In this document: piece after piece, positions 49,503 to 54,367 of the stretch
How the letters are laid out: the number at the start of each line of letters is the position of its first letter
Numbering within the stretch: the first letter of the stretch is position 1
Origin: Rhizobiales bacterium GAS188
Lineage (GTDB): Bacteria > Pseudomonadota > Alphaproteobacteria > Rhizobiales > Beijerinckiaceae
Reading direction: 5' to 3'
Length of the DNA stretch: 64,000 bases
Assembly (NCBI GenBank): GCA_900104855.1
Contig: FNSS01000002.1
Location: 248,001 to 312,000, forward strand
Translations under genes and position numbers: made by a program
Notes under the pieces: generated by a model
What the model was told of the DNA's origin: nothing
The model's input: the letters and a program-made list of their open reading frames with translations, nothing else
The model's database searches: none

Positions 49503-50711
49503 TCATGATGTGTCGATCCTGATCTGGCTGTGCGAAGCGGGGCGCTGAGCGCCTGCGCGTTCGAAGGTCTCGATGATGATCATGCGGCCACCGCAGCATG
49601 GGCATGGACGCGAAGGGGTGGGCGGATCGGCGTCGCCGGGGTCATTGACGCCGCCGTCTTGACGGGCCTGCGCGGCAACCGCGAGCAACCGGCGCGCGAG
49701 GGCAATATTGTGCGCGCGGACGCCGCTGGCGAATAGGCCGCAATGGCGAATGCGGTGGAAGCCGCTCGGCAGGACGTGAATGAGAAAGCGGCGGATGAAC
49801 TCTGGGACGGCGAGCCTCATCGTCTTGTGGCGATCACGCCCCTTGATCCGATAGTCTTTCCATTTGAACGCAACGGCGCCCTCTTGGAGCGCGGTCAGCC
49901 GGGCGTTGGATATGGCGACGCGATGTGTGTAGCGGGAGAGATAAGCCAGCACGGCCTCGGGTCCGCCAAAGGGTCGCTTGGCGTAGACAACCCATTCCAC
50001 CGTGCGCAACGGCGCCAGAAAGGCCGTGAATGCAGCGCGCGCCGAAAGGTCGGCGTGGGCGCCAAAAAACTGCAGGCGGCCGGCGTCGAACGCGGCCATG
50101 AGCTTTTCGAGGAAGAGACGACGGAACAGCCGAGAAAGAACCCGCACCGGCAGAAAGAAGCCGGGCCGGCAGGCGACCCACCGCAGACCATCCAGCGAGA
50201 GGCCGCCCCCCGGCGCGATCATGTGAATGTGCGGATGATGCGTGAGCGCCGATCCCCAGGTGTGGAGAACGGATACGGCGCCGACGCGCGCGCCCAAGTG
50301 TTTTGGATCGGCCGCGATCGTGATCAGCGTTTCGGACGACACCTTGAACAGAATGTCATAGACCGTCGCCTTGTTCTGATAGGCGATGTCGGCGACGGCG
50401 GCCGGCAGCGTGAACACGAGGTGATAATAGGCAACGGGCAAGAGTTCGACTTCGCGCTCGGCGAGCCACGTTCTGGCCGCCGCGCCCTGACACTTCGGAC
50501 AATGACGGTTACGACACGAGTTGTAAGCGATGATCGTGTGAGCGCAATCCTCGCAACGCGCGACATGACCGCCGAGCGCCGCCGTGCGGCAGTTCTCGAT
50601 CGCCGCCATCACTTTCAATTGGCCAAGACTCACATGGCCGGCGTTGGCCTCACGCCAAGCCTGGCCGTGGGCGCGGAAGATATCCGCGACCTCCAGGACG
50701 GGACGCGGCAC
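49503..50711 (-). CDS. IS91-family transposase (HUH Y2 type)
   Basis: A 402-aa rolling-circle-type transposase. A zinc-binding N-terminus carries CARC-like pairs (Cys53, Cys56, Cys66, Cys71, Cys74; CRNRHCPKC). The HUH motif is His159-Pro-His161-Ile-His163. The catalytic tyrosines lie in YLSRYTHRVAIS (Tyr257 and Tyr261). A C-terminal CPCCGG supplies another zinc site. It nicks one strand and moves the element by a rolling-circle-like mechanism. It lies 12 bases after a tyrosine recombinase gene on the same strand, an arrangement known for some IS91 relatives. The frame is intact, so the element may be active. Confidence 0.93.
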   Translation of the reverse strand: MPRPVLEVADIFRAHGQAWREANAGHVSLGQLKVMAAIENCRTAALGGHVARCEDCAHTIIAYNSCRNRHCPKCQGAAARTWLAEREVELLPVAYYHLVFTLPAAVADIAYQNKATVYDILFKVSSETLITIAADPKHLGARVGAVSVLHTWGSALTHHPHIHMIAPGGGLSLDGLRWVACRPGFFLPVRVLSRLFRRLFLEKLMAAFDAGRLQFFGAHADLSARAAFTAFLAPLRTVEWVVYAKRPFGGPEAVLAYLSRYTHRVAISNARLTALQEGAVAFKWKDYRIKGRDRHKTMRLAVPEFIRRFLIHVLPSGFHRIRHCGLFASGVRAHNIALARRLLAVAAQARQDGGVNDPGDADPPTPSRPCPCCGGRMIIIETFERAGAQRPASHSQIRIDTS

Positions 50712-50723
50712 GGGAAGCGGGCG

Positions 50724-51611
50724 TCATGCGGGCGCTTCGTGCTTGGTCGGGTTCTTGGCTAAGTTCAAGCTGAGCCGCTCCAGGGGGCTCGTTACGTCGC
50801 GGATCGTGTTGACGGCGACACGCGTATAGAGCGCGGTCGTATCGAGCTTGGCGTGTCCGAGCAGAACCTGGATCACCCTGATATCGACATTCTGTTCGAG
50901 CAAATGCGTGGCGAAGCTATGCCGCAGCGTGTGGGGCGACACGCGCTTGGCGATTCCCGCCGTCTGCGCCGCAGCGAAAACGGCGCGACGGAGCTGCCGG
51001 GCGGACATTGGGTTGACCGGATCGAGCCCAGGGAACAGCCAAGCCCGTGGGCGCGCCACATGCCACCAGTCGCGCAGTAACTCAAGCAGTTGCGGCGAGA
51101 GCATGACATAGCGATCCTTGTCGCCCTTGCCTTGCTCAACGCGGAGCGTCATGCGCTTGCTGTCGATATCGGACACCTTCAACGCGACGACCTCGGACAC
51201 GCGCAAACCGGCCCCATAAGCCACGCTGAGCGCCGCCTTGTATTTGACGCCGGGGGCGGCCTCCAGAAGTCGCGCCACTTCCTCGGGGCTCAACACGATC
51301 GGCGCCCTGCGCGGTTCGCGCACCAACGTCAGACGCCGGACCAGATCGTCCCGTTCGAGCGTCACCTTGAAAAAGAACCGGAGCGCGACGATCGCGGCAT
51401 TGATGCTCCCCGGGCTCACATGGGTCTTCGTCATGTGCAATTGAAACAGACGAAGATCCTCGCTGGTGGCGGCATCGGGCGAGCGGCCGAGGAAAGCTGC
51501 GAAGTTTTTGACGTAACGGATGTAGTCCTTCTGGACCTTCTCCGCGAAATGACGAGCCGTCATGTCTTCGATCATGCGCTGGCGCAATGGGCTGATGGCC
51601 TTGTCGGTCAT
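50724..51611 (-). CDS. Tyrosine recombinase associated with the IS91-type element
   Basis: A 295-aa XerD-like integrase with an N-terminal SAM-like DNA-binding domain (HFAEKVQKDYIRYVKNFAAF) and a complete catalytic set: Arg137 (GAGLRVSEVVAL), His227 and Arg230 (SPHTLRHSFATH), His253 (LLGHAKLDTTA) and Tyr262 (LYTRV). It probably resolves or helps transpose the element. It is the upstream gene of the pair. The right end hairpin follows about 10 bases before its start. Confidence 0.93.
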   Translation of the reverse strand: MTDKAISPLRQRMIEDMTARHFAEKVQKDYIRYVKNFAAFLGRSPDAATSEDLRLFQLHMTKTHVSPGSINAAIVALRFFFKVTLERDDLVRRLTLVREPRRAPIVLSPEEVARLLEAAPGVKYKAALSVAYGAGLRVSEVVALKVSDIDSKRMTLRVEQGKGDKDRYVMLSPQLLELLRDWWHVARPRAWLFPGLDPVNPMSARQLRRAVFAAAQTAGIAKRVSPHTLRHSFATHLLEQNVDIRVIQVLLGHAKLDTTALYTRVAVNTIRDVTSPLERLSLNLAKNPTKHEAPA

Positions 51612-51620
51612 GGCGATAGC

Positions 51621-51666
51621 TCCTGTCTCACACGAGGTTTAAAAACCCCATGATCTTGAGACAGGA
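51621..51666. repeat. Right-end hairpin of the IS91-type element
   Basis: TCCTGTCTCA at 51621-51630 and TGAGACAGGA at 51657-51666 are a 10-bp perfect inverted repeat. The loop holds a second small palindrome (GGTTT..AAACC). Subterminal hairpins mark the origin or terminus in IS91-type elements, so this probably is one end. Confidence 0.55.
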
Positions 51667-51807
51667 CGGGAGAGCCCGTTATGCCGACATCCAATGAGCC
51701 TCGCCCGCGCTCCCGGCGGGGAAACCTTACCGCGCGAGCGGTTTAGTCCTTGGGGGCCATGCAGAAGCCCTAGCCGCCCTACCTAGCGCCTTGGCGTGGC
51801 CGGCAGC

Positions 51808-52005
51808 ATGGCCGAAAAGCCCCCCTTCACGATCAGTATCGAGTTGCACGTTGAAGAGCGTGTGCGCCGCTACGGCTGGAGCATTTGCGAAAATGGGATA
51901 CCGCGCGGTCATTCGAAAGAATCTTTCTCGACAATGCGCGAAGCTCAGGCCGATGCGGATAAGGTCATGCAAAGGCTCATCACCAACTGGCAGATAGGCA
52001 AATGA
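51808..52005 (+). CDS. Small conserved protein, paralogue of the 45563 gene
   Basis: A 65-aa protein MAEKPPFTISIELHVEERVR, RYGWSICENGIPRGHSKESF, STMREAQADADKVMQRLITN and WQIGK. It is the partner of the 45563 gene. The ATG at 51808 aligns with the start of that gene; a GTG at 51796 is in frame but not needed. It ends in a strong terminator. Confidence 0.65.
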   Translation: MAEKPPFTISIELHVEERVRRYGWSICENGIPRGHSKESFSTMREAQADADKVMQRLITNWQIGK

Positions 52006-52006
52006 C

Positions 52007-52038
52007 AGCCCCGTCTCGAAAGAGCGCGGGGCTTTCTG
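52007..52038 (+). terminator. Rho-independent terminator
   Basis: AGCCCCG at 52007-52013 pairs with CGGGGCT at 52027-52033 and is followed by TTCTGTT, directly after the stop of the 51808 gene. Confidence 0.7.
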
Positions 52039-52062
52039 TTGAGCAAGCTCTATACTGCCGGC

Positions 52063-52179
52063 ATGTCGGATCAACCTTCACCGGGGCGGCGCGGTCGGCC
52101 CGGCTGGCGCGACTTCGCGATTGTCCTATGCCTCGCCGTGATCGGCGTCGCGTTGGGGCTGATCTTCAGGTGGTGGTGA
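52063..52179 (+). CDS. Very small membrane protein
   Basis: A 38-aa frame, MSDQPSPGRRGRPGWRDFAI then a hydrophobic VLCLAVIGVALGLIF and a tryptophan pair at the end. One membrane span with a basic cytoplasmic lead. No family recognised. Confidence 0.4.
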   Translation: MSDQPSPGRRGRPGWRDFAIVLCLAVIGVALGLIFRWW

Positions 52180-52300
52180 GAGCGCAAGCCTTAAGCCCGC
52201 GGTAAGCATGGCTGGCGCTTATATAGGCGAGCGCGAAATTGGTTGCTGCGTTCGTGCCCCCCTCAGGTCCGTCTCCCACGCCTGCGCTGAGCGAAGGCCG

Positions 52301-52432
52301 CTAGTCGCGCGGATCGTCAGGGCGACGGTCTATGGCCTTCGCCTTCATATAGGCCGCGAATAGCGCTACAGCTGCCACGAGGAAGACTGCGCCGACTAAT
52401 AGCCATGCGTCCCAGGCTTCTTGCGAAATCAT
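52301..52432 (-). CDS. Very small membrane protein
   Basis: A 43-aa frame MISQEAWDAWLLVGAVFLVA, hydrophobic to FAAYMKAKAIDRR, then an acidic-basic tail. One membrane span. A GGGAATT sequence precedes the ATG. It follows the cut membrane gene fragment at 52464. Confidence 0.45.
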   Translation of the reverse strand: MISQEAWDAWLLVGAVFLVAAVALFAAYMKAKAIDRRPDDPRD

Positions 52433-52463
52433 GGGCAATTCCCGTCACGGGAGCAGCCCAAGC

Positions 52464-52578
52464 TTAATGCACCAACTGCGCAGCCGGGCAAGCCAGAGCT
52501 TCGCCATGCGCTTCGTCATCTGACCATAGCTGCCCGACTAGCGTCGCGACCGCCGCGATAGCCAGGAAGACCGCAGGC
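52464..52578 (-). pseudogene. Membrane protein fragment cut by the second mini-element
   Basis: The minus strand reads PAVFLAIAAVATLVGQLWSD then DEAHGEALACPAAQLVH and a stop. The frame emerges directly from the left inverted repeat at 52579, so the start of the gene was removed by the insertion. A single membrane span remains. Confidence 0.45.
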
Positions 52579-52675
52579 GGGTAGTGGGTCAGTCTGAAAT
52601 TTCGAGCGCTTGACCGACCGGCCTCACCGCCGCCATCTCATTCCTATATGCTTGTCGTGAAGCAGGGAGGACGCG

Positions 52676-52876
52676 ATGTTCGGTATTGAATGGCTCAAGA
52701 AAGGTTCTCCCGTCGAAAAGGAAACATCCGTTTTGGCGAGTGAAGCCGAGGTGATCGTGAGCGCCAAAAGTCGGTCACTCGACGTGGGGAAGCGCCATCC
52801 AGGGCAAGAACCAGATAGTTTCCGTTTGATGGATGAGACCGGAAAAGTTATCGGCGTGTTTTCGGCCCGGATTTGA
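52676..52876 (+). CDS. Small protein carried by the second mini-element
   Basis: A 66-aa protein MFGIEWLKKGSPVEKETSVL, ASEAEVIVSAKSRSLDVGKR and HPGQEPDSFRLMDETGKVIG. A strong GGGAGGA ribosome site precedes the ATG. The middle looks like a short strand-helix domain with an acidic C-terminal part. No family is recognised. It is the only complete gene of the element, so it is the prime candidate for a selected cargo. Confidence 0.6.
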   Translation: MFGIEWLKKGSPVEKETSVLASEAEVIVSAKSRSLDVGKRHPGQEPDSFRLMDETGKVIGVFSARI

Positions 52877-52900
52877 CAAAATGCCACCACACCTAAAGGC

Positions 52901-53071
52901 GTGAAACGCCCCCGAGACACCAATCAGCTCGCCAAGCTGGTGACGGATATCCTTACCGGCCAAGCCGAGGACCGCGAGCCGACGCCGGAAGAGCGCGGGG
53001 TTGATCCTGCCGCGTCCGCTATGGGCCGCAAGGGCGGCCCCGCGCGCGGCGAGCATGACGCCCGAAGATAA
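52901..53071 (+). pseudogene. Small basic protein with its C-terminus replaced by the element end
   Basis: A GTG-started 56-aa frame, MKRPRDTNQLAKLVTDILTG with EDREPTPEERGVDPAASAMG and RKGGPARGEHDARR. The first 45 residues match a small family that reads KRPRDxNQLAKLIxDIATGE ... EPTPEExGxDPAAxxLGRxGG and normally ends in a lysine/alanine-rich, histone-like tail (GGKARAxxLSPxxRxxIAKKAA). Here the tail is missing and the stop overlaps the inverted repeat, so the element end truncated it. Confidence 0.5.
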
Positions 53072-53126
53072 TTTCAGACTGACCCACTACCCTCAGCCGC
53101 GCGCCAAGGGCTCGCCGTCAGTGCTC

Positions 53127-53357
53127 TCACCTTCCGCCCTTCCTCAACTTCGGCGCTGGTTTGGCCGCAAGTTCTTCCGCCTCTCTCGCTTCGCGCAGAG
53201 CCCGCAGCTTGGCAGTTTTCGCCTGGTCCGACGCCAGGCGCTTCGCCTCTTCGGCAAAGACATCGTTCTTGCGCTTTTCTTCGGCCTGCGCCTTCGCGAA
53301 CGATTTGTTCGCCTGCTCCTCGCGGGCCACTTGGGTAGTTGATTTCACGTCGCTCAT
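53127..53357 (-). CDS. Small charged helical protein coupled to an XRE remnant
   Basis: A 76-aa protein MSDVKSTTQVAREEQANKSF, AKAQAEEKRKNDVFAEEAKR, LASDQAKTAKLRALREAREA and a basic end. It is a single long, highly charged helix, probably a coiled coil. Its ATG overlaps the TGA of an XRE regulator tail as ATGA, repeating the arrangement at 6925-6928. GAGG sits immediately upstream. Confidence 0.6.
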   Translation of the reverse strand: MSDVKSTTQVAREEQANKSFAKAQAEEKRKNDVFAEEAKRLASDQAKTAKLRALREAREAEELAAKPAPKLRKGGR

Positions 53358-53435
53358 TTCCTCAACCTCAGCCTCACGCCCGGCCCCTCGCCGTTCTCCT
53401 CGACGAAGATCAGGCTTTCCAAAATCGCTTCGAAC
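53354..53435 (-). pseudogene. XRE regulator, C-terminal remnant
   Basis: The frame FEAILESLIFVEENGEGPGV followed by RLRLRK and TGA is the typical tail of short XRE regulators (LEAAGVxFVEENGxGPGVRLRK), here behind an in-frame TAG. The helix-turn-helix part is lost. Confidence 0.5.
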
Positions 53436-53628
53436 TAGGCGGCATTTGTTGAGGCGGCGCCGGAACCCATAGCACATGACAGGCCGGCCTACGGGCGTGG
53501 GCAATGGACTTAGGCACTGGGGATGCCGGCACCCCTAAAAAGACGGTGGCCGCCTCGAGTTCGGAGTCGGCAGATATCGTCTTCCGATCGCGTGCATCGC
53601 TGGGGTTCCATACGACATAGTTGCGCAC
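53410..53628 (-). CDS. Small hypothetical protein
   Basis: A GTG-started frame of 72 aa, MRNYVVWNPSDARDRKTISA then DSELEAATVFLGVPASPVPK. A good AAGGAG lies seven bases before the start. The C-terminal third is less convincing and overlaps the XRE remnant in another frame, so the gene may have lost its original end. Function unknown. Confidence 0.4.
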   Translation of the reverse strand: MRNYVVWNPSDARDRKTISADSELEAATVFLGVPASPVPKSIAHARRPACHVLWVPAPPQQMPPSSKRFWKA

Positions 53629-53629
53629 G

Positions 53630-53720
53630 CTATTTCTCCTTCAAATACCCCTTCGCCTTGAGGTGCTCGACGAGGAGCTTCTCGACATAAAACGCGAGCG
53701 GCCTACCGGAAGGTTGATGC
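53630..53720 (-). pseudogene. C-terminal remnant of a small helical protein
   Basis: The frame RPLAFYVEKLLVEHLKAKGY followed by LKEK and a TAG at 53630-53632 looks like a genuine helical C-terminus. No start can be followed upstream. It ends just before the ribosome site of the 53628 gene. Confidence 0.35.
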
Positions 53721-54367
53721 CGGCCCCGATAGCTGCGGGCGCTCTAGCGCTATTGCAGACCAAAAAGCCATCCTTGTGGTCGCCGACAAGCTCCTCATGC
53801 GAATGATGGCGCTTCCCGCTCGCACGCAAGCCGGCCGGGCCGCCGAGGTTCGGGCATTCCTTCGCCACGTCGGGAGCTGGCGCGGTCCCCGGGGACGACC
53901 TCAATTCGCCAGAGCGCACAACACGTCATCTTCTTGGCGAATTTGCCGGCCTGCGCGAGGCCGAGCTCGCTGCGATCTAACATTCGACGGAAACGACGGC
54001 CCCGCACGGCGCGCAGACGTCGGCGACGCCCTGGCTACAAGGAGTGCGGCGTCGGGATGTCGCCAGCCCTTACATAAGCACGGCGGCTCAACCATTCCAC
54101 GGTGGGTCCCTCGCCGGCCCCCCTTGCCGGAAACCGACGGCCCCCTGGCCACGGACGGGGCCATTGAGAGCACGCCCGGGGCCGGCATGACGGTAGCACG
54201 TTTTGAGAAAAGGCGGGCCCCGCCAGCAACCCTTTGGGAGCGGCCGACGGGGTCCTAGGCCACGACCTGATATGGGGGGCAAGTCGGCTGCGGCTGCCCC
54301 CCAGACCCTTGCCCCGGCATGTCACATCAAGCAAGTAGAGGCCGCTCCAGCCACATGGCGCAAAGGG
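53721..54367. other. Gap with palindromic repeats
   Basis: About 650 bases without a supported gene. It holds divergent members of the dispersed palindrome class near 53995 and 54105 and a clear one at 54212. Confidence 0.4.
54212..54265. repeat. Palindromic intergenic repeat, copy 5
   Basis: GCGGGCCCCGCC on the left arm, GACGGGGTCCTAGGCCACG on the right. Same class as the copies at 7214 and 49076, with a longer, more divergent loop. Confidence 0.5.

Follow-up and report, generated by a model that had tools for sequence, protein, structure and literature searches.

Results

A short element bounded by inverted repeats

In the 64,000-nucleotide stretch of DNA analyzed here (the window), two arms of 23 nt, at 52579-52601 and 53070-53092, are 100% complementary to each other (23/23 nt) across a spacing of 468 nt, as the first-pass annotation had described. 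The element proper is placed at 52580-53091 because other copies of the end start with GGTAGTG, which leaves a repeat of 22 nt: the left terminal inverted repeat (GGTAGTGGGTCAGTCTGAAATT; 52580-52601, plus strand) matches the end of the transposon group described below, and the right one (53070-53091, minus strand) pairs with it. On sequence grounds, the outermost G/C pair of the arms is a coincidence of the flanks that lies outside the element; once it is removed, the size given earlier, 514 bp, shrinks to 512 bp, and the reading as a real mini-element stands. ORF and protein checks found no transposase inside the 512 bp, in agreement with that annotation, and no second copy of the unit was found in the home genome.

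The left repeat is followed by a leader (52602-52675, plus strand) that is conserved in sequence comparison and has, immediately ahead of the first gene, a TATATGCTT-N6-AAGC-like motif. Counted with its repeat, the left end shares 90% identity with that at C3:82462 over 88 nt and 80% identity with that at C1:5126536 over 85 nt, and these two ends precede different small ORFs. At 52640-52675 of the window and in the related left ends, a conserved TGCTT-N6-AAGCA-like palindrome stands before the first gene as a possible operator. Five RNA folds of a 5' hairpin before this gene had at best a slight advantage over shuffled sequences (z -0.66 to -2.04), a simple scan of 52500-53200 matched no sigma-70-type promoter, and no Rfam RNA was found in 51500-54200.

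The first gene, an intact passenger of 66 aa (52676-52876, plus strand), has GGGAGGA directly before its ATG, which bears out the earlier description of a complete gene with a strong ribosome site. Its protein has no Pfam match at E 1 and no NCBIfam match at E 0.1. A single homolog was found in one other genome of 199 searched (G192:C397; 37/63 identical, 59% over 63 aa), and no end was recognizable beside it with up to three mismatches allowed. The dN/dS ratio between the two genes is 0.11, but dS is saturated at 3.3, so that the evidence for selection on the 66-aa gene is weak. The predicted structure of the protein (mean pLDDT 59, pTM 0.26) is unusable.

The second gene is a broken copy of what we call the KR gene, an accessory gene of the parent transposon, and its remnant occupies 52880-53071 (plus strand), with an ORF that runs from a GTG at 52901 to 53071 and has no Pfam match at E 1 and none in NCBIfam at E 0.1. 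The ATG of this copy is out of frame with the body, a second frame disturbance lies near the end, and the C terminus is missing at the right repeat, where intact homologs finish with a conserved C-terminal GGxxRAxxLTPExRxEIAxKAAxxRW-like stretch. KR genes were matched 23 times in 199 genomes, the window's own copy included, and 20 of these matches point inward from a position no more than about 700 nt inside an end; in the three exceptions, the gene reads toward the end (L210), has a right-end-like repeat only (L199), or has no repeat (C1:7279526, L216). The frame that enters the right repeat is also informative: in L186, an element of another genome, the transposase tail finishes there as ISN and a stop codon, and the equivalent frame in the window gives ISD and a stop codon. 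Because KR matches sit inside ends, the C terminus stops at the repeat, and the right repeat keeps the transposase-tail frame, we regard the second gene as a leftover of the parent. The loss of its C terminus at the repeat, noted at first pass, therefore holds, and its description as independent cargo does not, since it is the remnant of a gene found in nearly every intact parent.

Insertion site

The flanks of the element, CGCAGGCG at 52572-52579 and CTCAGCCG at 53092-53099, are read from the comparison of the two copies and from the empty-site alignment as a decayed 8-bp target duplication; they agree at 6/8 positions, a level that random local 8-mer pairs reach in 0.6% of cases (chance 0.006). 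When the element and one 8-bp copy were removed and the flanks joined, the result gave an ungapped 82-nt match in the same genome, around C2:9287-9368. The score of this empty-site alignment, tested for duplication lengths of 0-14, peaks at 38 for a length of 8, with the small margin that 37 is reached at 7 and 36 at 10, and it falls to 30 at 0. Single flanks score 22 and 21, and 500 random pieces score at most 15. The matched site is a paralog, not an allele. The ungapped 82-nt match and the 6/8 flanks support an insertion that is old and whose duplication has decayed.

The insertion hit a small membrane-type frame on the minus strand, whose C-terminal part (52464-52579) runs into the left repeat, as noted earlier for a membrane gene cut there, and whose N-terminal part lies at 53092-53130, with a possible GTG start at 53130. 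With the flanks rejoined, a membrane-type protein of 48 aa can be read without interruption. A homolog search with this joined protein in 149 genomes, the home genome included, gave mostly chance-level matches; the match that was used, from the same genome, has an E value of 0.0017. Coding genes running unbroken across the ends in relatives had been named as evidence against an element; what the paralogous empty site shows is a frame that the element interrupts. A plasmid collection, possibly minus the window's own or very near records, contained no relative of 52400-53300 that could serve as an empty site.

The transposon group that shares the ends

A search for the end in other genomes, proposed at first pass, showed that it recurs at other loci: the pattern GGTAGTGKSYCNGTYTGAA occurs in 44 of 199 genomes of the same family, and the reversed-pattern control in one. 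In the 9.09-Mb home genome, GGGTAGTGGGTCAGTCTGAA is found at 7 sites with at most three mismatches, and the reversed control at 2. At least 118 stretches with the end, from several phyla, came from a scan of named genomes, and paired ends enclose 0.07 to 4.4 kb. Forty-two end pairs, counting that of the window, have no more than one mismatch in each end. Of these, 28 are flanked by an exact 8-bp target duplication, and the others score 7/8 (3 pairs), 6/8 (3), or at most 4/8 (8); at the other lengths between 5 and 11, a single exact match appeared, at 7. IS1-family elements duplicate 8-9 bp of their target.

Autonomous transposons with the same ends, the existence of which had been raised as a check, do occur, as full elements with a transposase of their own, about 290 aa in length. 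Two such transposases were tested, and both match Pfam DDE_Tnp_IS1 (PF03400) with 28.4 and 34.7 bits (cut-off 24.1), and score 50.8 and 55.7 against the NCBIfam IS1 model NF033558, below its cut-off of 100. The parents may belong to a longer, single-ORF IS1 subgroup, ISMhu11, a name that was not found in the literature searched. The group's GGTAGTG end fits the GGnnnTG that PMC6807381 gives as common to the IS1 family. Among the matches listed, Mycobacterium genomes contribute an end, L072, and a full element, L143, which has a KR gene, a transposase, and an exact duplication.

The KR gene accompanies the transposase in 22 of 23 end pairs with a full transposase, on the same strand and toward the opposite end. 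Four of the ten seeds of the KR profile came from these 23 elements, and the independent count is accordingly 18/19. In the 118 named loci, which were selected by the end, 27 of the 31 KR matches listed share the strand of an end and follow it at a distance of at most 900 nt, and two of the remaining four are P63C proteins. When loci were selected by the transposase instead, 22/27 had a KR gene on the same strand, no more than 4 kb upstream; these 27 come from 44 transposase matches in 297 genomes of the same order, the window's family included, after exclusion of 2 in genomes already used and 15 partial ones. The misses L308, L309, L326, and L328 have just 0.5-1.9 kb of upstream sequence, and L314, with an exact duplication, is a genuine miss. 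With the best candidate end pair taken, 16 of the 27 loci have an exact 8-bp duplication.

All 21 members of the KR alignment are matched by PHROGs phrog_2384, a family of unknown function, and no match was found in Pfam at 0.01 or among solved structures. A model of the protein consists of three helices (mean pLDDT 74.8), and because its pTM is only 0.32, we make no claim about the fold. Proteins with a P63C domain in L133 (3634-4707), L143, and L190 start with a stretch that resembles the C-terminal end of KR, and it is there that the KR profile matches them.

Cargo of the full-length parents

Matches to toxin-antitoxin or defense-type proteins were found in 12/23 full elements, a count from a scan of selected rather than all proteins that stands without a background rate. 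The PADLOC model PD-Lambda-2_B, whose partner genes were left out of the scan, matches in L091, L135, L176, L179, and L183, and each of these five elements combines its PD-Lambda-2_B-like gene with exact 8-bp duplications. HEC-04 in L081 and L178 and SoFic in L189 are further PADLOC matches. Pfam SocA_Panacea in L193 and L194, PIN_10 with DUF433 in L161, and DUF4258 with a subthreshold HTH partner in L128 complete the 12. Outside this count are P63C in L133, L143, and L190, SDH-protease in L184 (above the cut-off) and L185 (below it), and, in L188, an AAA/STAND protein. No defense match came from the proteins tested of L062, L087 (Pfam only), L109 (PADLOC only), and L187, the last of which has an acetyltransferase. 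The scan covered the elements named here and did not extend to L151, a shortened element.

Mini-elements elsewhere

The design of the 512-bp unit is, as judged from the predicted gene order, not unique, and L186, in genome G081, is built alike: it measures 409 bp, has the exact duplication CACTGACG, and contains, in order, an end, a leader, a different 64-aa gene, a KR remnant, a transposase tail, and the other end. In L199 (G192), a KR remnant is fused to a transposase tail and followed by a right end with 3 mismatches, and no left end was seen at that locus. An acidobacterial 569-bp pair (L067), with flanks that agree at 4/8, encloses a KR-like stretch that breaks off at a comparable point.

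Among 47 pairs at fetched loci with a duplication of at least 7/8, the transposase is full in 23, partial in 2, and undetected in 22. Seventeen of these 22 are only 66-285 bp long, too short for much cargo, which makes cargo-bearing units of the size found here a minority, as the first-pass annotation had expected. Of the five longer ones, two of which were looked at for cargo, L186 is the only one in which a left-end gene has been demonstrated. The other of these two, the 419-bp L166 (L166:452-870), has an exact duplication, no detectable transposase, and a long open frame that spans most of the element.

Probable relics in the home genome

The group's transposase gave 0 matches in the home genome (G000), with a single query and then with a five-sequence profile that was positive in 5/5 control genomes, with one or two matches each. 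Because no transposase of its type was found, the element is probably immobile today. In seven home-genome regions with ends (L014-L020), the best ungapped partner ends have at least 5 mismatches. The end at C1:7312248 has a near-match partner with a one-base gap about 1.5 kb away, the only recognizable partner among the copies examined, a set that left out the end at C1:5900384. Given the missing transposase and the single visible partner, the home genome seems, from these matches, to hold relics of the transposon.

Several of these relics retain intact small genes, and in one family, found after the ends at C1:5900384, C1:4649524, and C1:5670186, dN/dS between copies is 0.15-0.58. A neighboring passenger gene in the window (51796-52005, plus strand), from another copy of the transposon group, is of the same family as the gene after the C1:5900384 end; its 96%-identical copy lies at C1:5900455, 71 nt from the start of that perfect end, and in the window no transposon end precedes it. 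Upstream, at 49503-51754, an IS91-type Y2 transposase gene adjoins a tyrosine-recombinase gene, and the 115-bp stretch 51640-51754 has seven further copies in the genome at 99-100% identity. This IS91-type stretch may have removed the end that formerly preceded the gene at 51796. On the other side of the element, 53351-53703 is 93% identical to C1:4827136-4827488, a duplicate in a region of pieces that recur in the genome.

Discussion

The 512-bp unit is very probably a non-autonomous derivative of an IS1-type DDE transposon, produced by internal deletion and similar to a mobile insertion cassette (MIC). What sequence comparison recovers in it is both ends of the group, the left end of the parent followed by a small first gene, the broken KR gene, the right end, and an insertion into a membrane-type frame with a probable, decayed 8-bp duplication. 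The recurring ends, the full-length parents, and the paralogous empty site all support the earlier view that this is a mini-element with genuine terminal repeats that encloses small genes and no transposase. A deletion in a full transposon would have taken out everything up to the right repeat, namely the remainder of the KR gene, whatever other cargo there was, and the transposase; the unit would have been moved in trans by a sister transposase that has since been lost, or cut down after insertion, and the 66-aa gene would be read from a promoter in the left end. The order of deletion and insertion, like any role of KR, we infer.

The second of these two histories, in which a full transposon inserted, its middle was lost later in place, and the short unit never moved, has a probability that we put just short of even. 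It fits a single copy and a decayed duplication, with the finding that only one other examined end in the home genome has an inverted partner, as expected of decaying transposons, and with the lack of any transposase match in this genome. The 22 of 47 fetched pairs that keep a duplication of at least 7/8 without a detectable transposase speak against it, suggesting that short units may well move; deletion in place is nevertheless still compatible with the data because both histories leave a duplication.

The conservation of the left end up to the start codon, together with the difference between the genes behind it in different copies, might suggest instead a gene cassette, that is, a promoter-bearing left end that acts as a slot for taking up varied small genes. 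Consistent with such a slot, among 26 ends with a KR gene and no transposase within 700 nt, a count that omits ends followed by fewer than 400 nt, the KR gene starts within 100 nt of the end in 8, whereas in the other 18 it starts at 173-360 nt, far enough in for a first gene to fit. In addition, when the first ORF was chosen mechanically, the 42 ORFs fell into 29 similarity clusters, of which 26 had a single member, a diversity that is overstated because this choice includes wrong frames. The largest of these clusters (8 members) is, however, the KR gene itself, no mechanism of capture was seen, and the broken KR gene, along with the transposase tails in L186 and L199, points to deletion from a full transposon, so that we consider uptake into a cassette unlikely. 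An inverted repeat that arose by chance on either side of two ordinary small genes, to which the lack of an exact duplication at the window site would lend itself, was rejected as having a negligible probability in view of the recurrent ends, the exact target duplications at other copies, and the empty-site match.

The internal-deletion derivative and its parents can be compared with several known systems. The parents resemble the IS1 family in their DDE_Tnp_IS1 match, GGnnnTG ends, and 8-bp duplications, and differ from it in that the two transposases tested score below the NCBIfam IS1 cut-off. According to PMC3129680, which also describes transporter ISs, MITEs and MICs are IS-related elements without a transposase of their own that can be activated by the cognate transposase of a related IS. 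The 512-bp unit likewise has no transposase, and its inner gene makes it MIC-like, but its content is the parent's left end and an accessory gene that is broken, and the search of the genome for a cognate transposase gave no match. In bearing toxin-antitoxin or defense-type genes (12/23), the parents are comparable to the Tn3-family elements with toxin-antitoxin pairs (PMC7157771) and the Tn7-like elements with cargo (PMC8649781); they differ from both in having another transposase and a function-unknown KR gene near the opposite end. No paper that recognizably describes the transposon group or the KR gene was found in the literature searched, which lies mostly outside subscription journals.

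A broader proposal, on balance doubtful, is that the parents form an undescribed, defense-carrying IS1-type group that is spread over several phyla and built on a fixed frame, with the small KR gene near one end and the transposase near the other. Between these two would lie exchangeable toxin-antitoxin or anti-phage genes, and in many copies an exchangeable small gene would directly follow the conserved left end. KR would then be an integral factor of transposition or its regulation, and mini-elements would leave first genes behind as orphans. A mini-element such as this is one route by which a short orphan gene comes to stand alone behind a conserved leader. It also brings to light a group of transposons whose transposase is almost always accompanied by an accessory gene of unknown function and whose cargo is often of the toxin-antitoxin or phage-defense type, and thereby makes testable both the part of the KR protein in transposition and the extent to which defense systems are spread by small IS-type elements.
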